A model generated the notes under the pieces. The model was given only the letters and a program-made list of their open reading frames with translations, had not been told where the DNA came from and made no database searches. This document shows positions 2,676-27,864 of a stretch of 64,000 bases of DNA, one piece after another (the first letter of the stretch is position 1; every line of letters starts with the position of its first letter). The position numbers and the translations under genes were made by a program. Source of the DNA: Saccharopolyspora sp. SCSIO 74807 (GTDB taxonomy: Bacteria > Actinomycetota > Actinomycetes > Mycobacteriales > Pseudonocardiaceae); contig NZ_CP146100.1 in assembly GCF_037023755.1 (NCBI RefSeq), forward strand, positions 3,503,501-3,567,500, given 5' to 3'.

Positions 2676-2772
2676 CCGCCCATCCCAACACGGGTGACGC
2701 CCGCCCGATCGGCCGGACCCGCAGCGCCGAGGGGGTGAGCACTGCCACCGGTCACCGGTCCGACACCGGTTA

Positions 2773-2778
2773 TAGAGT
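2773..2778 (+). promoter_or_regulatory. -10 box of zapE, leaderless arrangement
   Basis: TAGAGT fits the actinobacterial TAnnnT -10 hexamer and ends 7 bases before the zapE ATG. Transcription would then start at or one base before the A of the start codon, giving a leaderless mRNA; no Shine-Dalgarno sequence is present. No convincing -35 is seen. Confidence 0.5.
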
Positions 2779-2785
2779 CGGCGGC

Positions 2786-3829
2786 ATGACCGCCGCGCGC
2801 CTCGTGGACCGCAGCCCCGAGCTGAGCCCGGACGAACTGATCGACGCGATGGCTCCGCCACCGCTGTTCGACGAGGCCCGGTTCGAGACCTACGTGCCGA
2901 ACCCGGACGAGCCCAGCCAGGCCGAGGCCGTAGCGGCCTGCCGCGAGTTCGCGGGCCGGGTCGCGGCCGCCGGCGAAGGCGGCTCGTGGTGGCGAACGCT
3001 CTTCGGCCAGAAGACGGGCAAGTCCGGCGGGAAGCGCCCGCAGGCCAAGCGGGGCCTGTACCTGGACGGCGGTTTCGGCGTCGGCAAGACGCACCTGCTG
3101 GCCTCGCTGTGGCACGAGGTGCCCGGCCCGAAGTCCTACGGCACGTTCGTCGAGCTGACCAACCTGGTCGGCGCGCTGGGGTTCAGCGAGACGGTGCGGC
3201 GGATGTCCGAGCACCGCTTGCTGGCCATCGACGAGTTCGAGCTCGACGACCCGGGCGACACGATGCTGGTCACCCAGCTGATCGCGAAGCTCACCGAAGC
3301 GGGCGTGCACGTCGCGGCCACCTCGAACACGCTGCCCGGCAAGCTCGGCGAGGGACGGTTCGCCGCTGCCGACTTCCTGCGCGAGATCCACGCGATGGCC
3401 GAGCGCTTCGACGTGGTCCGGGTGGACGGGCCGGACTACCGCCACCGCGGGCTGCCGGATCCGCCGGAACCGGCCGACGACGCGGAGCTGGCCGAGCAGG
3501 CCGACTCGGTCGGAGGGGCCACGCTCGACGACTTCGACGAGCTCTGCACCCACCTGGCCGGATTGCACCCGTCGAAGTACGGCAAGCTCGTCGACGGCGT
3601 CAGCACCGTGCACCTGCGCGGACTGCACGCGGCGCCGAACCAGACGGTGGGGCTGCGGCTGGTGGCCTTCGCCGACCGGCTCTACGACCGGGCGATCCCG
3701 GTGCGGGTCTCCGGCGAGCCGCTGTCCGGGCTGTTCACCGAGGAGATGCTGCGCGGCGGCTACCGCAAGAAGTACCTGCGGGCGCTGAGCCGTCTCACTT
3801 CGCTATCCAGGGACATCGTCAAATCCTGA
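2786..3829 (+). CDS. zapE: ZapE/AFG1-like AAA+ ATPase
   Basis: 347 residues. Walker A is GGFGVGKTHLL (Lys101-Thr102) and Walker B LLAIDEFELDD (Asp149-Glu150), followed by a sensor-like VAATSNTLPGKLGEGRFAAADF. The order FVELTNLVGALG, Walker B, TSNTLP, GLHP and a C-terminal RVSGEPLSGLF segment is that of the ZapE/LACE1 family, associated with FtsZ in bacteria and Afg1 in mitochondria. It is probably cytoplasmic. The first ATG after the TAGAGT box was chosen as start; a longer frame exists upstream but begins within the promoter. The stop is followed after 5 bases by a palindromic repeat shared with the convergent rocD gene. Confidence 0.88.
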   Translation: MTAARLVDRSPELSPDELIDAMAPPPLFDEARFETYVPNPDEPSQAEAVAACREFAGRVAAAGEGGSWWRTLFGQKTGKSGGKRPQAKRGLYLDGGFGVGKTHLLASLWHEVPGPKSYGTFVELTNLVGALGFSETVRRMSEHRLLAIDEFELDDPGDTMLVTQLIAKLTEAGVHVAATSNTLPGKLGEGRFAAADFLREIHAMAERFDVVRVDGPDYRHRGLPDPPEPADDAELAEQADSVGGATLDDFDELCTHLAGLHPSKYGKLVDGVSTVHLRGLHAAPNQTVGLRLVAFADRLYDRAIPVRVSGEPLSGLFTEEMLRGGYRKKYLRALSRLTSLSRDIVKS

Positions 3830-3834
3830 GTTCC

Positions 3835-3885
3835 GAGTGAACGGCCTCTTCGCCCGATCTATTGGGACCAGCGGTCCGTTCACTC
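3835..3885. repeat. dispersed palindromic repeat, copy 1 (probable bidirectional terminator)
   Basis: Arms GAGTGAACGG and CCGTTCACTC are perfectly complementary and enclose about 31 bases with a second inner pairing (CGATCTATTGGGACCAGCG region). It lies between the convergent zapE and rocD genes, and the TGA of its right arm, read on the minus strand, is the rocD stop codon. Similar copies lie at 16021, 20958 and 21066. Confidence 0.85.
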
Positions 3886-5169
3886 CTGGTGGAGCACCTC
3901 GCTGATCGCGTCCAGGCCGGTGTCCAGCTCGTCGCGGCCGATCACCAGCGGGGGTGCGATCCGCAGCGTGGTGTCCTGGGTTTCCTTGCACAGCACGCCG
4001 CGCGCGGCCAGGGCTTCGCTGACCTCCCGGCCGGTCGGGCCGCCGGGAGCGAGCTGCACACCCGCCCACAGCCCGCGCCCGCGCACCCCGGTGACCCCGC
4101 GGCCGACGAGTTCGCCGAGCCGCGCGTGCAGGTGCGCGCCGAGTTCGCGGGAGCGTCGCTGGAACTCGCCGGTGGCCAGCATCGCCACCACCTCGCGCCC
4201 GACCGCGCATGCCAGGGGATTGCCGCCGAAAGTCGAGCCGTGCTCACCGGGCCGCAGCACGCCGAGCACGTCATCGCGGCCCACGACCGCGGAAACCGGC
4301 AGGATGCCGCCGCCGAGCGCTTTGCCGAGCGTGTACAGGTCGGCGCGCACCCCCTCGTGCTCGCAGGCCAGCAGTTCGCCGGTGCGGCCGAGCCCGGACT
4401 GGATCTCGTCGGCGATCAGCAGCGCGCCGTGCTCGTCGCAGGAGCGCCGCACCGCTTTCAGGTAGCCCTCCGGCGGAACGACCACACCGGCCTCGCCCTG
4501 CAGCGGTTCCACCAGCACGGCCGCGGTGCGTTCGGAGATCGCCGCTTCGACGGCCGCCGCGTCGCCGTAGGGGGTGATGCGGAACCCGGGCGTGAACGGC
4601 CCGAAGCCGCCGCGGGCGGACTCGTCGGTCGAGAACGACACGATCGTCGTGGTGCGGCCGTGGAAGCCGCCCCCGGCCACGACGATCTCGGCCTGCTCCG
4701 CGGGCACGCCCTTGACTTCGTACGCCCACTTCCGGGCGATCTTGATGGCGGATTCGACGGCCTCCGCCCCGGAATTCATCGGCAGCACCCGCTCGGTGCC
4801 GGTGAGCTCGGCCAGTTCCCGGCAGAACGGCCCGAACTGATCGTGGTGGAACGCCCGGCTGGTGAGCGTGACCCGACCGAGCTGCTCGGTGGCCGCGGCG
4901 ACCAGCCGCGGGTGCCGGTGCCCGAAGTTCAGCGCGGAATACCCGGCGAGGAAGTCCAGGTAGTGGCGACCTTCCACGTCGGTCACCCGCGCCCCGTCGG
5001 CTTCGGCGATCACCACCGGCAGCGGGTGGTAGTTGTGCGCGCCGTACTGCTCGTCGAGCCGGAGGTATTCGGCCGCGCCCGAAGCGCCGGAGATGTCGGC
5101 GGCACCGGAGACGTCGGAGGCGCCCGAAGCCCCGGCGGCGGCAGGCGTGTCGGTCGAAGCGGAAGTCAT
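3880..5169 (-). CDS. rocD: ornithine--oxo-acid aminotransferase
   Basis: 429 residues, class III PLP aminotransferase. The PLP lysine is in TLGKALGGG (Lys283), the aspartate contacting the pyridine nitrogen in LLIADEIQSGLGRTG (Asp254), and the substrate region in MNSGAEAVESAIKIARKW. NYHPLPVVIAEADGARV near the N-terminus and the ESTFGGNPLAC-type motif (here GSTFGGNPLAC) are typical of RocD. It converts ornithine and 2-oxoglutarate to glutamate semialdehyde and glutamate in arginine/ornithine breakdown. The first 35 residues are an Ala/Ser/Gly-rich degenerate repeat absent from most homologues. The ATG follows TAACCT by 7 bases, so the mRNA looks leaderless; a 17-bp palindrome lies about 90 bases upstream. 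No other arginine genes are adjacent. Confidence 0.9.
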   Translation of the reverse strand: MTSASTDTPAAAGASGASDVSGAADISGASGAAEYLRLDEQYGAHNYHPLPVVIAEADGARVTDVEGRHYLDFLAGYSALNFGHRHPRLVAAATEQLGRVTLTSRAFHHDQFGPFCRELAELTGTERVLPMNSGAEAVESAIKIARKWAYEVKGVPAEQAEIVVAGGGFHGRTTTIVSFSTDESARGGFGPFTPGFRITPYGDAAAVEAAISERTAAVLVEPLQGEAGVVVPPEGYLKAVRRSCDEHGALLIADEIQSGLGRTGELLACEHEGVRADLYTLGKALGGGILPVSAVVGRDDVLGVLRPGEHGSTFGGNPLACAVGREVVAMLATGEFQRRSRELGAHLHARLGELVGRGVTGVRGRGLWAGVQLAPGGPTGREVSEALAARGVLCKETQDTTLRIAPPLVIGRDELDTGLDAISEVLHQE

Positions 5170-6514: not shown

Positions 6515-8224
6515 TCAGCTCAAGCGGCGGTCGTAGGTGCCGCGGCCGTACTGCTGCAGGGCCTCGCGCACCCGGTGGGTCTCCTGCCGCCGCGTGATCG
6601 GCCCGCCGGTCGCGCCGAGCGGGAACATCTGCACCCCGCCGTGCATCCGGCGCACCGGGTGCCACGCGTGCCAGCGCTGCGGCGGCGCGTGTTCGGCCAG
6701 CCACACGGTCAACGCCTGCCTCTTGCCCTTGCCGACGATGCCGACGCGGCGCACTTCGTGCCACGGGATCTCCCGCGCCAGCCCGGCCCGCGAGATCCGC
6801 AGCCCGTCGGTGTTGACCTTCAGCCGCAGGCCCGGCAGCACGGCTTTGGCCAGCGACAGCAGACCGCTGACGAAGAACAGCAGGAACGCCAGCGTCGGTA
6901 CCGGGTTGCCGGCGACTTCGTCGCCGAGCGTGTAAGCGAATGCCGCGACCACGAACATCAACACCGCCCACAGCAGCGCGCTGCCGCGACCGCCGGTGAC
7001 GAACACCGGTCCGGGGGTGTTCGCGGAAACCTTCCGCGGCACCGACGACGGGAACGACGGTTCGGGAGCCTTCGGGGCGGGCGGCCGCTTGGTCTGCGCG
7101 GCGGGCGCGGCCCCCGCGTTCGGGTTCCGAAACTGCGGCGGTGCGGCCGACCAGTCACCCCGCGGTCGTGAGCCGGGGTTCGACGGCGTGCCGGCCTGGA
7201 ACGCGGCCGAGCCGGGCACGGCCTGCCCGCCGGGCGGCTGCGCGAATGCGGTTCCTCGGTTGCCGCCCTGGTGGGCAGCACTGCTCTGAGCCGTGCCGCC
7301 GTTCTGGGCGGCACCACCCGGCAGCGGCATCTCGAACGCCGCCTCGGAAGCCTGCTTGAGCTGCGTGGTGTGCTCGTTGATCACGGCGCTGATCGCGGGC
7401 GGGAGCCAGTTGTCGCCCTGCGGGCTCGTCGCGCCGATCGCGTCCAGCAGCTGGTCCGGCGTCGGCCGCTCGGCAGGTTCCTTGGCCAGGCACGGGCCGA
7501 GCAGCGAGCGCAGACCCGGGCTCAGCGCGCTCAGGTCCGGCCGGTTGTGCACCACCCGGTACAGCATCACCGGTGCGCTGCCGGAGCCGAACGGCCCGGC
7601 GGCGCCTGCCGCGAACACCAGCACCGCGCCGAGCGAGAACACGTCGCTGGGCGGGCCGACGTCGCTGCCGGTGGTCTGCTCCGGTGAGAAGTACCCCGGC
7701 GTGCCGAGGAAGATCCCGGTGGCGGTGAGCGCGCTGTTGGTCACCGCGCGCGAGATGCCGAAGTCGATGACCCGCGGCCCGTCCGGCCCCAGCAGCACGT
7801 TGCCCGGTTTCAGGTCGCGGTGCACCAGCCCGGCCCGGTGGATCGCGCTGAGCGCCTCGGCCAGCCCGGCGGCGAGGCTGCGCACGGTCGGCTCGGGCAG
7901 CGCGCCGTGGTCGGAGACCGCGCTGTGCAGCGTCGGGCCGGGCACGTATTCGGTGGCCAGCCACGGTTGCTCGGCGTCCGGTTCGGCATCGACGACGGCG
8001 GCGGTCCAGAAGCCGCCGACGGAGCGGGCCATGTCGACTTCGCGGCGGAACCGTTCGCGGAACTCCGCGTCCTCGGCGAGCTCCGGGCGGGCCACCTTGA
8101 TCGCCACGACGCGGGCGCCGCGGGAACGCGCCAGGTACACCGCGCCCATCGCGCCGCCACCGATGCGGGCGAGCAGGCGGTAGTCCCCGACCTTGGCGGG
8201 ATCGCTTGCCAGCAACGGCTGCAC
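6515..8224 (-). CDS. membrane Ser/Thr protein kinase
   Basis: 569 residues from GTG at 8224 with AGGGGGA upstream. The kinase domain occupies about residues 10-265: glycine loop IGGGAMGAVYLA, invariant Lys in VAIKVARP, catalytic loop HRDLKPGN, DFG in VIDFGISRA, and the APE equivalent GYFSPEQ. A Pro/Gly/Gln/Ala-rich linker of about 150 residues follows, then two hydrophobic segments (ALLWAVLMFVVAAFAYTLG and LAFLLFFVSGLLSLAKAVLP). The C-terminal 85 residues have an IPWHEVRRVGIVGKGKRQ motif resembling a bacterial PH-like domain. Kinase and PH-like tail would both face the cytoplasm. The gene diverges from the ABC operon. Confidence 0.9.
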   Translation of the reverse strand: MQPLLASDPAKVGDYRLLARIGGGAMGAVYLARSRGARVVAIKVARPELAEDAEFRERFRREVDMARSVGGFWTAAVVDAEPDAEQPWLATEYVPGPTLHSAVSDHGALPEPTVRSLAAGLAEALSAIHRAGLVHRDLKPGNVLLGPDGPRVIDFGISRAVTNSALTATGIFLGTPGYFSPEQTTGSDVGPPSDVFSLGAVLVFAAGAAGPFGSGSAPVMLYRVVHNRPDLSALSPGLRSLLGPCLAKEPAERPTPDQLLDAIGATSPQGDNWLPPAISAVINEHTTQLKQASEAAFEMPLPGGAAQNGGTAQSSAAHQGGNRGTAFAQPPGGQAVPGSAAFQAGTPSNPGSRPRGDWSAAPPQFRNPNAGAAPAAQTKRPPAPKAPEPSFPSSVPRKVSANTPGPVFVTGGRGSALLWAVLMFVVAAFAYTLGDEVAGNPVPTLAFLLFFVSGLLSLAKAVLPGLRLKVNTDGLRISRAGLAREIPWHEVRRVGIVGKGKRQALTVWLAEHAPPQRWHAWHPVRRMHGGVQMFPLGATGGPITRRQETHRVREALQQYGRGTYDRRLS

Positions 8225-8323
8225 TTCAAGTCCCCCTCGATGACTCGGTGGCGGGGGCCAGCTTACGGATTCGGACACCGGCGTTGTCGCGATCCCCGCC
8301 GAGAGCGTTCGCGAGGGCTGCTG

Positions 8324-8382
8324 GTAATCGGTTACTCGGGTTCGCCGCAACTCTTCCGGCGCAGTGCCGCGGTGAGTATGCT
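8324..8382 (+). promoter_or_regulatory. candidate promoter and operator of the ABC importer operon
   Basis: TATGCT at 8377-8382 is a good -10; a weak TTCCGG lies 17 bases upstream at 8354-8359. Further upstream, GTAA-TCGG-TTAC (8324-8335) is a perfect inverted repeat. The GTG of the ATPase gene follows about 54 bases after the -10. The regulator is unknown; no repressor gene is adjacent. Confidence 0.45.
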
Positions 8383-8435
8383 CCGGCGCACCGCAGTGGC
8401 GGTACCTGATCAACGATGATCGAGGGAGGCACACC

Positions 8436-9947
8436 GTGTCGCGTTCCGAGGGGTCGGCGGCGCCGGTGCTGGTGCGGCTCGACGACGTGAGCAAACGATT
8501 CCCCGGGGTGGTCGCGGTCTCCGGGGTCCACTTGGACGTGCGCGCGGGCGAGGTGCACGTGCTGGCCGGCGAGAACGGCGCGGGCAAGTCGACGCTGATG
8601 AAGCTGGTGGCGCAGGTCGAGGAACCCTCCTCCGGCACCGTCGAGGTCGACGGCCGGCCGGTGTCCTTCCGCGGGCCCGCCGCGGCGCGCAGGCTCGGGA
8701 TCTCGATGGTGCACCAGGAATTCGCGCTGGCCCCCGACCTGTCGGTGGCGGAGAACCTGTTCATCGGGCACGAGCCCGGCAGCGCCGGGTGGATCTCCCG
8801 CAGCGCCGAGCGCGAGCAGGCGCGGGCGTTGCTCAAGCGGGTCGGGCTGCACGTCGATCCCGCGCGGCCGGTGGGCAAGCTCTCCACCGCGCAGCAGCAG
8901 CGGGTGGAGCTGGCGAAGGCGCTGGCGGTCGAGGCGAAGCTGCTCATCCTGGACGAGCCGACGGCGACGCTGACCGAGCAGGAGACCGCGGAACTGTTCG
9001 GCATCGTCCGCGAGCTCACCGCCAACGGCATCGGCGTCCTGTACATCTCGCACCGGCTGGACGAGATCTTCGAGATCGGCGACCGCGTGACGGTGCTGCG
9101 CGACGGCGAGGTGGTCGCGACCCGGCCGGTGGCCGAGCTGGACGAGTCGCGGCTGGTCGCGCTGATGGTGGGCCGCGACGTGCAGAACCTCTACCCGCGC
9201 ACCTACACCGAGCCGGGCGAGGTGCGGCTGCGGGTGCGCGGGCTGTCCCGCGGCGCGGCGGTGCGCGACGTGTCGTTCGAGGTGCGCGCGGGCGAGATCG
9301 TCGGCATGGCCGGGCTGGTGGGTGCCGGGCGCACCGAGTTGGCGCGATCGGTGTTCGGGGCCGAACCGCCGGATTCCGGCTCGGTCGAGCTGGACGGCCG
9401 GGAACTCAAGATCCGCGGCCCGGCGGACGCGATCGCCGCGGGCATCGGCTACCTCACCGAGAGCCGCAAGTCCGACGGGCTGGCGCTGCAGCTCGGCGTG
9501 GACAAGAACATCACGCTGGCGAAGCTGCCGATGGCGGGCGGGCTGATCGACCTGGGCGCGGAACGCCGCGTCGCGCAACGGGAACGGGACCGGCTGCGGA
9601 TCCGGGTGCCGAACATCGGCCGCCCGGTGCAGGCGCTGTCCGGCGGCAACCAGCAGAAGGTCGTGCTGGCGCGCTGGCTGCAGACCGAGGCCGAGGTGCT
9701 GCTGTTCGACGAGCCCGGCCGCGGCATGGACGTCGGGGCGAAATCGGAGATGTTCGGCCAGCTGGACGCGCTGGCCGTGGACGGCAAGGCGGTCGTGCTG
9801 ATCTCCAGCTACCTGCCGGAACTGCTGAACATGTGCGACCGGATCCTCGTGCTGCGCGAGGGGCGGATCACCGGTGAGCTCGAGCGCGCCGAGTTCTCCG
9901 AAGAACGGATCGTGGCGCTGGCGACCGGAGCGAGGGAGGACCAGTGA
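8436..9947 (+). CDS. sugar ABC transporter ATPase, duplicated (RbsA type)
   Basis: 503 residues with two fused ATP-binding domains. Domain 1 has Walker A GENGAGKSTLMK, a signature-like LSTAQQQRVELAKALA, and Walker B LLILDEPTATLT. Domain 2 has a degenerate Walker A (GLVGAGRTELARSVFGA, no GKS/T), the signature LSGGNQQKVVLARWL, and DEPGRGMDVGAKSEM. This asymmetry is normal for RbsA/MglA/XylG ATPases, which energise uptake of ribose, galactose, xylose or related compounds. GTG start with GGGAGG upstream. Its stop overlaps the permease start (GTGA). The operon has a single permease gene and a lipoprotein binding protein but no kinase or isomerase, so the substrate is undetermined. Confidence 0.92.
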   Translation: MSRSEGSAAPVLVRLDDVSKRFPGVVAVSGVHLDVRAGEVHVLAGENGAGKSTLMKLVAQVEEPSSGTVEVDGRPVSFRGPAAARRLGISMVHQEFALAPDLSVAENLFIGHEPGSAGWISRSAEREQARALLKRVGLHVDPARPVGKLSTAQQQRVELAKALAVEAKLLILDEPTATLTEQETAELFGIVRELTANGIGVLYISHRLDEIFEIGDRVTVLRDGEVVATRPVAELDESRLVALMVGRDVQNLYPRTYTEPGEVRLRVRGLSRGAAVRDVSFEVRAGEIVGMAGLVGAGRTELARSVFGAEPPDSGSVELDGRELKIRGPADAIAAGIGYLTESRKSDGLALQLGVDKNITLAKLPMAGGLIDLGAERRVAQRERDRLRIRVPNIGRPVQALSGGNQQKVVLARWLQTEAEVLLFDEPGRGMDVGAKSEMFGQLDALAVDGKAVVLISSYLPELLNMCDRILVLREGRITGELERAEFSEERIVALATGAREDQ

Positions 9948-15537: not shown

Positions 15538-15586
15538 GGGCCTGCCGCGGAACGTGAACCGAGACCCCGCGTCGAAAGGGGAAAGC

Positions 15587-15913
15587 ATGACGACGACGCG
15601 TGAGACGCTGAAGGCTTCGCTGTCCGGCGTCGATTTCCCGGCGAGCAAGGACCAGCTGGTGCAGTTCGCCAACAACAACGGTGTCGACGAGGAGACCGTG
15701 CGGGCGCTGCGGGCGATGCCGCCCGCCGACTACGACAACGTCACCGAAGTGGTGCGCTCGGTCCCGCTGGAGCGGGGCGAGGAGGAGGGCCAGTCGGATT
15801 CCGACAAGGCTCAGCAGAACCGCCGGCCGCAGAAGGGCGGCTTGGCCGAGCACCAGGCCGAGGTCCCGGCGAACCCGATCGTCGAGGAGTTGGGGGAGAA
15901 CCGGGGCAGCTGA
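15587..15913 (+). CDS. DUF2795 domain protein
   Basis: 108 residues. The first 65 residues (LKASLSGVDFPASKDQLVQFANNNGVDEETVRALRAMPPADYDNVTEVVRSVP) form the DUF2795 helical domain; the rest is charged and low-complexity with a QKGGLAEHQAEVP stretch. No enzyme motif or membrane segment is visible. AAAGGGG precedes the ATG. It follows the hibernation factor by 49 bases and is probably cotranscribed. The role of DUF2795 is unknown; the neighbourhood suggests stress. Confidence 0.8.
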   Translation: MTTTRETLKASLSGVDFPASKDQLVQFANNNGVDEETVRALRAMPPADYDNVTEVVRSVPLERGEEEGQSDSDKAQQNRRPQKGGLAEHQAEVPANPIVEELGENRGS

Positions 15914-16020
15914 GCCGGTTGCGCTCGGTCTTTCCGCGATCGAGCGAGTTCAGTGCGCTGGAGGCGCCGGGCTGATCCCCGGCGCCTTCGGCATGTCCGG
16001 CCCCGTCCGGCTCGTCCTCT

Positions 16021-16074
16021 CCGAGTGAACGGCCTGTTCGTCCAATCTAGTGGGACCAACGGTCCGTTCACTCG
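16021..16074. repeat. dispersed palindromic repeat, copy 2
   Basis: Arms CCGAGTGAACGG and CCGTTCACTCGG are perfectly complementary over 12 bases; the centre reads CCAATCTAGTGGGACCAACGG. It lies about 110 bases beyond the DUF2795 stop and before the LacI gene, a position that fits a terminator. Confidence 0.85.
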
Positions 16075-16171
16075 GAAAATCGACACGCCCGCGCCTTACC
16101 CGGCCGGGGATGGTGTGTTCGGAGTGAGCGGACCGTGCCCCCGGGAAGAGCGGGCGAACGGGTCTCGCACT

Positions 16172-16212
16172 CCGGAAAGTCCGGCCGACGAGATCGCGGA
16201 ATTCGCTATGCT
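16172..16212 (+). promoter_or_regulatory. candidate promoter/operator of the LacI-type gene
   Basis: TATGCT (16207-16212) is a good -10 box 37 bases before the TTG start. Just upstream, CCGGA-AAG-TCCGG (16172-16184) is a perfect inverted repeat in the -35 region and could be an autoregulatory operator. Confidence 0.45.
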
Positions 16213-16249
16213 GCCGGGGCGGGGAGGGCTGACCGAGGGGGAGCCTGAG

Positions 16250-17263
16250 TTGAACCGGCCCACGATCATCGACATCGCGCGCCGCGTGGGCGTGTCCAAG
16301 GCCGCGGTGTCCTACGCGCTCAACGGCCGCGCGGGTGTTTCGGCCGCGACGCGCGAACGCGTCCTCGATGTCGCCGCCCAGCTCGGCTGGGAGTCCGGCG
16401 GCCCGGCCCGCACTCCGGCCGCGGACCGCACCGGCAGCGTCGGCGTCGTGCTGTCCCGCCCGCCGGACGAGCTGCGTTCCGATCCGCTCGTGGTGCAGTG
16501 GTTGTCCGGGGTGGAGGCCGCGTTGGCGCAGCACGGCTTGTCGTTGCAGCTGGCGCTGACTCCGGACCAGGACGCCGAGCTGCTGACCTATCGCCGCTGG
16601 TGGGCCGAGCGCCGCATCGACGGCATGATCGTCACCGACCTGCGCGCCTGCGACCCGCGCCCGCAACTGCTGCGCGAACTCGGCATTCCCGCCGTCGTCG
16701 TCGGTGACCACGAGCGCTTCGGCAACGTCGCGGTGCTGCGCCACATCGAGCGCGAAGAGGTGCACGCCGTCGTCGATCACCTGGCGTCGCTGGGGCATCG
16801 CCGGATCGGCCACGTCCAAGGCGGTCCCGATCTGCAGCACACCCAGAACCGCAGCGCCGCGTTGCGCGGGCGGGTGCGCGAACGCCTCGGCACCGACCTG
16901 GTCAAAGCCGAGGCCGACAGCACCGAATCCGGTGGTGTGCGGGCGAGTTGGCGGCTGCTGGCCGCGGACCCGCCGCCCACGGCGATCGTCTACGACAGCG
17001 CGGTGATGGCGGTCGCGGCCGTGGCGCGCTCCGCCGAGCTCGGCACCCGCGTTCCGGATGAGCTCGCGGTGCTGTCCTGGCAGGACTCGATGCTGTGCCG
17101 GGTCGTGACGCCGCAGGTGACCGCGCTGGCGCAGGACGACGAGCAGAACGCGGAGGCAGCGGTGCACCTGCTGCTGGAGCTGATCGAGACCGGCACGGCC
17201 GACGACCTGGAACTTCCGCCGCGGGTGCTGGTCCCGCGGGCGAGCACCGAAGGCAAGAGCTGA
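16250..17263 (+). CDS. LacI family transcriptional regulator
   Basis: 337 residues from TTG at 16250, chosen because GAGGGGG lies 8 bases upstream and the family homology starts there (NRPTIIDIARRVGVSKAAVSYALNGRAGVSAATRERVLDVAAQLGW: helix-turn-helix and hinge). The C-terminal domain is of the periplasmic-binding type (TGSVGVVLSRP, RIDGMIVTDLRACDPRPQLL, LGHRRIGHVQGG, PTAIVYDSAVMAVAAV, LAVLSWQDSMLCRVVTPQVTAL), so a small effector, usually a sugar, would control DNA binding. No transporter or sugar gene is next to it; the nearest sugar importer is 4 kb upstream. Confidence 0.9.
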   Translation: MNRPTIIDIARRVGVSKAAVSYALNGRAGVSAATRERVLDVAAQLGWESGGPARTPAADRTGSVGVVLSRPPDELRSDPLVVQWLSGVEAALAQHGLSLQLALTPDQDAELLTYRRWWAERRIDGMIVTDLRACDPRPQLLRELGIPAVVVGDHERFGNVAVLRHIEREEVHAVVDHLASLGHRRIGHVQGGPDLQHTQNRSAALRGRVRERLGTDLVKAEADSTESGGVRASWRLLAADPPPTAIVYDSAVMAVAAVARSAELGTRVPDELAVLSWQDSMLCRVVTPQVTALAQDDEQNAEAAVHLLLELIETGTADDLELPPRVLVPRASTEGKS

Positions 17264-20150: not shown

Positions 20151-20942
20151 ATGCCCGAGCTGCCGGACGTCGAGGGTTTTCGCCGGGTCGCGCAAGCCGC
20201 GGCCGGCCGCGAAGTCGAGGACGTCGTGGTCAACGACTCGCAGGTGCTGCGCGGGGTGCGCCCGCAGGAGTTCCGGAAAGCCTTGCGCGGCAAGGAGTTC
20301 GGCACGCCGTGGCGGCACGGCAAGTGGCTGGTGATACCGGTCGGCGCCGAGTTCCCGGAGGTGTTGCTGCACTTCGGCATGACCGGCCGGATGTTGTGGT
20401 GCGGCCGGGACGACGAGCCGCACAAGCACGACCGAGTGGTGTTCCGCTTCGCCGACGGCGAGCTTCGGTACCGGGACATGCGCAAGCTGACCGGGTTGCA
20501 CCTGGCGCGGCGGCAGTCCGACCTGGACGCCCAACTCGGCGAACTCGGCCCGGACGCGATGGCGGCCTCCGCAGCGGACTACCGGGAGCGGCTGACCCGC
20601 ACCAAGCGCGGCGTGAAAGCGGCGTTGATGGACCAGGAAGTGCTGGCCGGGCTGGGAAATCTCACCGTCGACGAAACCCTCTGGCAGGCCCGCATCCACC
20701 CGGCGCGCAGCACCGGCGACCTGAGCGCGCCGGAGCTGTCCAAGCTCAGCCGCCGCGCGCACACCGTGCTGCGCCAGTCCGCGAAGGTCGCCCACGTGCC
20801 CGACCGCCCGTCTTGGCTCACCGGCCACCGCGACGAGCCCGACCCGCACTGCCCGCGCTGCTCGACCGCCCTCGACCGCACCAAAACCGCGGGCCGAACC
20901 ACATTCCACTGTCCGAACTGCCAGCCCCTCGACAACTCCTAG
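20151..20942 (+). CDS. Fpg/Nei family DNA glycosylase
   Basis: 263 residues. MPELPDVEGFRR gives the catalytic N-terminal Pro and Glu of the Fpg/Nei family (after Met removal). Also present are a conserved lysine region (WRHGKWLVIPV), the helix-two-turn-helix with MDQEVLAGLGNLTVDETLWQARIHP, and a C-terminal zinc finger with CPRC and CPNC. It removes oxidised bases and cuts abasic sites. ATG at 20151 preceded by GGAG. Two palindromic repeats follow the stop. Confidence 0.9.
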   Translation: MPELPDVEGFRRVAQAAAGREVEDVVVNDSQVLRGVRPQEFRKALRGKEFGTPWRHGKWLVIPVGAEFPEVLLHFGMTGRMLWCGRDDEPHKHDRVVFRFADGELRYRDMRKLTGLHLARRQSDLDAQLGELGPDAMAASAADYRERLTRTKRGVKAALMDQEVLAGLGNLTVDETLWQARIHPARSTGDLSAPELSKLSRRAHTVLRQSAKVAHVPDRPSWLTGHRDEPDPHCPRCSTALDRTKTAGRTTFHCPNCQPLDNS

Positions 20943-20957: not shown

Positions 20958-21008
20958 GAGCGAACGGCCTGTTGGCCCAATCTATTCGGACGAACGGTCC
21001 GTTCGCTC
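20958..21008. repeat. dispersed palindromic repeat, copy 3 (compensated arms)
   Basis: Arms are GAGCGAACGG and CCGTTCGCTC. Compared with the other copies (GAGTGAACGG/CCGTTCACTC) a T to C change in the left arm is matched by A to G in the right arm, so the stem is kept. It begins 15 bases after the Fpg/Nei stop. Confidence 0.88.
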
Positions 21009-21065
21009 GGATTGCATCCCGCGTACGCGGACCGGGGCGACATGCCGGCGCCCGCGGACCGAGGC

Positions 21066-21116
21066 GAGTGAACGGCCTGTTCATCCAATCTATTGGGACC
21101 AACGGTCCGTTCACTC
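21066..21116. repeat. dispersed palindromic repeat, copy 4
   Basis: Arms GAGTGAACGG and CCGTTCACTC; the centre CCAATCTATTGGGACCAACGG matches copy 2 closely. It ends 6 bases from the P450 stop. Copies 3 and 4 are 57 bases apart in one convergent intergenic region, each nearest to a different gene end. Confidence 0.88.
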
Positions 21117-27797: not shown

Positions 27798-27864
27798 TAT
27801 ACCGACCGGTGTGGTTATCACTGAAGACGCGCGCGGCGGATTTGTCAACACACCGGTCGGTATA
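27798..27864. promoter_or_regulatory. paired TetR operators in the divergent promoter
   Basis: TATACCGACCGGTGTG (27798-27813) and its exact reverse complement CACACCGGTCGGTATA (27849-27864) are separated by 35 bases. Each overlaps a -10 box: TATA near the oxidoreductase start on the minus strand and TATAGAAT (TAGAAT 27863-27868) 6 bases before the TetR ATG. Confidence 0.75.

Follow-up and report, generated by a model that had tools for sequence, protein, structure and literature searches.

The stretch of DNA analysed here (64,000 nucleotides, hereafter the window) covers positions 3503501-3567500 of the single-contig genome of Saccharopolyspora sp. SCSIO 74807 (6,688,468 bases; G000) and carries four copies of a 51-bp palindrome. 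The first (3835..3885, +; centre TCTAT) occupies a convergent junction between an AFG1-like ATPase gene (2735-3829, +) and a class-III aminotransferase gene (3880-5169, -), whose TGA stop codon (3882-3880) sits inside the right arm of the palindrome. The second (16023..16073, +) lies in the gap between two same-strand genes, a DUF2795 gene (15554-15913, +) and a LacI-type regulator gene (~16250-17263, +); it was initially called intragenic because the start of the LacI-type gene had been set too early, the homologous start being near 16250. The third (20958..21008, +), a variant with C at position 4 and G at position 48, and the fourth (21066..21116, +) are separated by a 57-bp spacer (21009..21065, +), forming a palindrome-spacer-palindrome (P-spacer-P) pair. 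Two convergent genes flank this pair (20958-21116), one of the formamidopyrimidine-DNA-glycosylase type (20151-20942, +) and one for a cytochrome P450 (21123-22265, -); 6 bp separate the second palindrome from the P450 stop codon.

A first-pass annotation of the same DNA had described four 51-bp copies with shared arms, three between convergent genes and the fourth downstream of a gene. This is borne out: two convergent junctions account for three of the copies, and same-strand genes enclose the remaining one; each copy has 1-6 mismatches to the consensus used. The positions given there were right for 3835, 20958 and 21066, and the copy placed at 16021 actually starts at 16023. There is no fifth close match in the window, the best remaining ungapped matches having 22 (same strand) and 17 mismatches (opposite strand). 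When the window was compared with Rfam at the gathering score, four tRNAs were the sole matches and the palindromes had none. The gap that holds the second copy (15914-16250) measures ~340 bases here versus roughly 1.1-1.3 kb, with an extra gene-like stretch, in four congeners. Elsewhere in the window, the gap between two divergent genes contains a long inverted repeat (27798-27864; TATACCGACCGGTGTG...CACACCGGTCGGTATA), which we take to resemble the operator of a TetR-type regulator.

Copy number, anatomy and distribution

The genome-wide search proposed in the first-pass annotation found the strict pattern GARYGAACGGN{10,40}CCGTTCRYTC at 123 places and its reversed control at 0. With the length fixed at 51, 118 places are found in the genome, and 163 when one mismatch is allowed. 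The counts of gene context and covariation given below rest on 60 strict copies among the 123 places. The orientation of each copy was read from its centre base (T or A), leaving 52 oriented copies once three that are not 51 nt long and five without T or A at the centre had been set aside; the alignment used for covariation comprises 51 of these 52, one identical copy being omitted.

A free-gap search (total length 40-56 nt) returned 357 places in eight carrier genomes, a count that omits three genomes with a single match each, and 348 places when the length was fixed at 51. In a scan of lengths from 36 to 66, with only YGAACGG...CCGTTCR fixed, exactly 51 was observed in 73 of the 78 matches in stretches of SCSIO 74807, in 96/98 in stretches of the congener G001 and in 23/23 in those of G017; the G001 and G017 figures lean towards 51 because these stretches were picked with fixed 51-nt patterns, whereas the SCSIO 74807 stretches were picked with a free-length pattern. 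The 51-nt spacing is shared by 11 of 16 free-length matches in Rhodococcus spelaei.

Within the palindrome, position i pairs with position 52-i, giving 23 pairs and a 5-nt centre that often reads TCTAT. The nearly invariant bases are GAG-GAACGG, C12, the CC at 20-21 and the mirrors of these, and two or three bases are common at positions 4, 11, 13, 17, 19, 22, 28, 30, 35, 37, 39, 41 and 48. The unit can be described as a variable centre enclosed by two inverted ends, each of which consists of GARYGAACGG followed by some 8 bases specific to the lineage. The symmetry ends at the edges: at distances 1-12, flank pairing was not beyond chance in 134 pooled copies. A weak excess is seen in lineage g26 alone (14 copies), for the first two flanking bases, which pair in 11 and 8 of 14 copies (z 2.1 and 1.8). 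The flanks have an outward GGAAA composition alike on both sides (TTTCC...GGAAA). This hinted at an extended stem, or at insertion into a palindromic target, both of which were rejected since the pooled 134 copies show no flank pairing beyond chance. Nor did these 134 copies reveal the target-site duplication that would mark a MITE of that kind (k=2, 10 versus 10.5 expected; k=3, 1 versus 1.7; k=4 to 9, 0). An invariant tetranucleotide at the foot of the stem was also sought, but in 52 copies none of the 20 positions nearest the stem on each side was invariant.

Of 53 right and 53 left sides, 16 and 7, respectively, have a tail like CTGATCGGGTGGCGCGCGGGCGTGTCGGC that begins ~15-20 nt beyond the arm. 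P-spacer-P units elsewhere in the genome are 70-77% identical to the window pair over most or all of it. In the stretches that contain the 60 strict copies, two copies lie within 150 bp of each other at ten places, in the same orientation at seven, in opposite orientations at two, with one unclear. The tail motif GCGCGGGCGTGTCGGC was also met, with 1-2 mismatches, in intergenic DNA ~2.8 kb from any strict palindrome (L053 5822, L029 199), and may therefore be a separate repeat. Among the relatives, G017 has a full palindrome accompanied by an array of half-palindromes that resembles a satellite: eight more right-half units follow one another in tandem, spaced 29-30 bp (L260 3001-3283). On contig 1 of the congener G001, 29 of the 50 copies listed (65 in all) lie within ~230 kb (0.687-0.915 Mb), often grouped closely.

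Within Pseudonocardiaceae, the family to which Saccharopolyspora belongs, 37 of 297 genomes contain the strict 51-nt pattern, and these represent 6 of 46 genera. When the ends were relaxed and the order, as the tool groups it, was searched, at least 5 copies were present in 14 of 397 genomes, two of which are of the same species as SCSIO 74807; the remaining genomes have at most 4 copies, and the reversed control reaches 2. Copies within two mismatches were found in Rhodococcus spelaei (12) and Antrihabitans cavernicola (7), both Nocardiaceae. Within one genus, g16, the occurrence is patchy, with 71, 48, 11, 10, 6 and 5 copies in some genomes versus 1-2 in the others. The interiors are lineage-specific: ..AACTTTC.. 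in G039 (apparently Halopolyspora), ..CACTCTC.. in g43 and ..CCTGTTC.. in g26.

A search for the RAYT family PF01797 (Y1_Tnp), which covered the five carriers G001-G004 and G017, gave 0 matches, and a RAYT was rejected as mobiliser for these five. SCSIO 74807 itself has 2 PF01797 matches, one of them within an IS605-type element with its OrfB gene. An IS200/IS605-type element (Y1_Tnp + OrfB_IS605) at ~2.4477-2.4495 Mb of this genome (L144 ~7740-9490) is absent from the conspecific genome G080; insertion of an IS605-type element into a palindrome was considered and rejected, since the element sits 17 bp outside the copy. No transposase was recognised among the named clusters, some of all the gene families that recur beside copies. 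The largest such family is a DUF5753 protein, adjoined by DUF397. DUF5753 and DUF397 are abundant in actinomycetes, and for this reason DUF5753 was not taken to be the mobiliser.

Base pairing and RNA features

The variant at 20958 had been presented in the first-pass annotation as a compensated base pair, by which pairing and not sequence would be preserved. The C/G change is real, but positions 4 and 48 vary independently: the 52 oriented copies comprise TA 27, CA 12, TG 8 and CG 5 (CG expected 4.3), that is, 32 Watson-Crick pairs versus 30.5 expected. Matched changes in one copy do not amount to covariation before all copies have been counted. Covariation across the copies, which the annotation had named both as a check and, if no excess were found, as a reason to abandon its reading, gave a value of 0.075 against 0.078 in shuffles (51 oriented copies), equalled by 352 of 500 shuffles. 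Standard pairs account for 84.4% in these copies versus 84.7% in shuffles; in slid versions the paired fraction is 24-49%, a difference expected of any palindrome.

The pair 13/39 is anti-correlated, with one base of each type in 45 of 61 copies, split 21 and 24. An equal division of this kind suggests that the founder had unlike arms and that the centre was later inverted in about half of the copies. Compared with shuffled right halves, stems carry extra mismatches in SCSIO 74807 (z 1.9), G080 (z 3.0) and Halopolyspora (z 2.7); no such excess was found in G001 (z 0.3) or g26 (z -0.5). Linkage between positions (r2) drops from ~0.09 to 0.02 within 10-14 nt, save for a rise at mirror positions, a mosaic-like pattern that fits copies exchanging pieces. 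Some g43 genomes have repeated copies with unlike inner arms, GTATCTCG versus GGAGTTCG, so perfect pairing is dispensable for spread.

Of the 8 window strands 7 were folded, and the predicted hairpins are strong on both strands, at about -24 to -30 kcal/mol and with folding z between -4.9 and -6.0. Sense and antisense hairpins were compared in 26 same-strand contexts, and each was the more stable of the two 13 times; G-U pairs number 34 and A-C pairs 27. A U-tract (at least 4 T in the 8 nt after the stem) was present on 1 of 94 transcribed sides, versus 12 of 94 for the same run before the stem (p 0.002). With neither a strand preference nor a U-tract, there is thus no sign of conserved RNA pairing. 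A terminator scan flagged none of the four window copies. The bidirectional terminator of the first-pass annotation is not supported in its canonical form; termination by the palindromes without a U-tract is possible.

Placement at gene ends and history

By our own gene caller, the genes around the 60 strict copies are convergent in 34 cases, on the same strand in 25 and divergent in 0; divergent gaps make up 12,585 of the 46,736 intergenic bases in those stretches (avoidance p about 7e-9). Copies inside genes at random, which the annotation had said would speak against it, were not what was found: the copies avoid genes. Between convergent genes the median distance to the nearer stop is 26 nt. 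In tandem gene pairs, 19 of 25 copies are closer to the upstream stop (p 0.015), with medians of 72 nt to the stop and 137 to the start. In four of the 60 cases, the last 6 bases of a neighbouring gene fall within the copy and therefore, by position, the GAG-TGA of the arm supplies the stop codon of the gene.

Junctions were compared across six species sets, with copies of up to two end mismatches included, G000 and G080 pooled as one species, some loci counted twice and nearly all stretches picked because they hold copies. On this footing, 10 of 208 element junctions are divergent versus 229 of 955 others, and 110 of 208 are convergent versus 132 of 955. The same holds when our own species is excluded, for divergent (7/106 versus 104/422, p 1e-5) and convergent junctions (58/106 versus 61/422, p 1e-16). 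Counted in this more permissive way, the own species has 3 divergent junctions among 102. A separate count puts 4 of 18 classified copies at divergent junctions in G001, three of them in one cluster, and, of 22 in Halopolyspora, 2 at divergent junctions and 1 inside a gene.

At the three window loci, the palindrome is present in the conspecific genome G080, whereas every 51-mer in the orthologous stretches of four congeners has at least 5 mismatches in the 20 bases of the ends. Positions in G080 were assigned to 58 of the 68 copies in SCSIO 74807, and a counterpart exists at every one of them. Of these counterparts, 54 have perfect ends, one has a single end mismatch and two have two such mismatches; the last is a 49-nt copy, the gap around it being equally long. 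No clean insertion or gain between the two strains was found at these 58 copies. Length differences of more than 15 bases are seen at three places, namely two flank indels (in one, the G080 flank is 16 bases shorter and the palindrome itself whole) and one P-tail-P unit of SCSIO 74807 that is a single P in G080. At another locus, SCSIO 74807 has two identical copies 108 bp apart and G080 has one, possibly a collapsed repeat since G080 is a draft. In 56 pairs compared between the strains, variable positions of the palindrome differ more often than the flanks (20/726 versus 202/16,608, p 0.001), and invariant positions are not significantly different from them (17/2,116 versus 202/16,608, p 0.11); the G080 stretches were mostly picked for holding a copy, which biases these figures towards conservation of the outer arms.

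A few gene ends carry the element in more than one genus. Element junctions coincide with own-species element junctions in g26 (3/18) and G017 (1/14), among them the window junction at 3835, versus 0/81 and 0/47 non-element junctions. No element junction is shared in G001 (0/38), G046 (0/16) or Halopolyspora (0/20), and one non-element junction matches in G001 and one in Halopolyspora. When the five sets are pooled, 4 of 106 element junctions versus 2 of 422 non-element junctions coincide with own-species element junctions (p 0.017), which points to old residence or favoured landing sites, rather than to free movement.

What the palindromes may be

The reading that we favour, with a little over even confidence, is that the palindrome is a REPIN-like interspersed non-coding repeat, spread as DNA by an apparently non-RAYT mechanism, and that any effects on transcription are secondary. 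It is favoured because of the fixed length, the sharp edges, the copy number, the restriction to gene ends, the subfamilies, the absence from four congeners and the lack of covariation. The first-pass idea of mobile or copied RNA hairpins acting as terminators survives as a dispersed, copied, lineage-specific family at gene ends, and not in its conserved pairing or canonical terminators. The copies would multiply at the DNA level, and what moves them is probably an enzyme acting in trans that reads two ends at a fixed spacing, or a DNA hairpin; new copies would persist where no promoter or gene is broken. Resident copies may then swap sequence by gene conversion, and expand or contract through recombination between neighbours, as P-tail-P units, before decaying. 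As a by-product, and whichever the direction of transcription, a hairpin at the 3' end may slow the polymerase, stop it or shield the mRNA end. We infer mobility, no direct jump having been seen; against a REPIN-like repeat we count that there is no fresh insertion at the 58 placed copies, no target-site duplication and no mobilising gene found by the RAYT search in five carriers or among the named families beside copies, and that some junctions are shared across genera.

A more specific proposal, which we hold only tentatively, is that of an undescribed system: self-spreading palindromes with a 51-bp ruler in Pseudonocardiaceae and Nocardiaceae, moved by a non-RAYT enzyme, resident at some gene ends since before the genera split, and kept uniform within each genome through gene conversion and centre inversion inside a DNA hairpin. 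Searches of the open-access literature, judged by the titles and the starts of abstracts listed, brought up no description of this family, and those published occurrences of the 10-letter arm strings that were examined by title, a part of all occurrences, look unrelated.

Selection at each gene pair could also account for the placement, if the palindromes were bidirectional U-less hairpin terminators or protectors of 3' ends. Such a role would fit their distribution over the 60 contexts (34 convergent, 25 tandem, none divergent), the bias of tandem copies towards the upstream stop (19/25), the 26-nt median at convergent junctions, the strength of the hairpins (z down to -6.0 among the 7 of 8 window strands) and the retention of the element at a few junctions across genera. 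I-shaped terminators without a U-tract have been reported in mycobacteria (PMC12288462) and, like them, the palindrome is a strong hairpin shortly after stop codons. It differs from them in being a single sequence family of fixed length and not a set of unrelated stems. We nevertheless consider selected terminators unlikely, given that there is neither covariation nor a preference for the sense strand, that U-tracts are rarer downstream (1/94) than upstream (12/94), that invariant positions are not significantly more conserved than the flanks between the two strains (p 0.11) and that the copies are missing at the same three gene ends in four congeners. Also unlikely is a DNA site for a dimeric or tetrameric protein, a chromosome organiser or a roadblock behind genes, in which the symmetry would reflect two half-sites and not a hairpin. 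The nearly invariant bases shared by the ends, the positions at which two bases alternate independently in each arm, as in half-sites, the fixed 51-bp length and the outward GGAAA composition of both flanks without pairing would all suit such a site, whereas the patchiness within genera (71 down to 1-2 copies in g16) and the lineage-specific interiors would be odd for a conserved organiser, the within-species constraint on invariant positions is weak, and the binder is hypothetical. Stem-loops behind genes are common in bacteria (PMC1590033), and one could think of unrelated ordinary terminator hairpins or chance palindromes; this has next to no probability and is refuted by a single family of 123 copies with fixed length and conserved ends, and by a reversed control of 0.

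The REPIN-like reading nonetheless stops short of filing the palindrome as a REPIN. REP and REPIN repeats carry a tetranucleotide at the foot. REPs are further described as 20-40 bp long with a tag at one end. In REPINs (PMC3116915), a variable spacer is enclosed by a pair of conserved inverted ends, the unit being a single hairpin; they are of high copy number and extragenic, and form tandem clusters that include the flanks. The same paper calls compensatory changes common and links REP/REPIN repeats to RAYT transposases. The palindrome resembles REPINs of Pseudomonas and others in its inverted ends, variable centre, high copy number, extragenic position and clusters that include flanks. It is unlike them in that it is 51 bp and not a longer doublet, shows no excess of covariation and has no RAYT gene in the five carriers. 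With the GTAG- and CGTC-tagged REPs and the BIMEs it shares the placement at gene ends (REPs lie downstream of coding regions, where neighbouring genes converge or point the same way; PMC3733652), and its P-tail-P pairs resemble BIMEs. Yet it exceeds the 20-40 bp of REPs, has no invariant flanking tetranucleotide, its ends read GARYGAACGG, and 7 of 10 close pairs have the same orientation, whereas BIMEs alternate (PMC2817692). As a high-copy extragenic palindrome behind genes, with 123 copies and 0 of 60 at divergent junctions, it matches REP and REPIN repeats, and it is REPIN-like in behaviour; of the features tested, it lacks the foot tetranucleotide, a RAYT gene in the five carriers searched and the compensatory changes.

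If the REPIN-like reading is true, a REP-like family of fixed length exists in two bacterial families without a RAYT or a foot tetranucleotide, and another enzyme can spread short hairpins. With more than 100 gene ends marked in one genome, and absent from congeners at the sites compared, the palindromes also offer a natural set for asking what a hairpin does to transcript ends.
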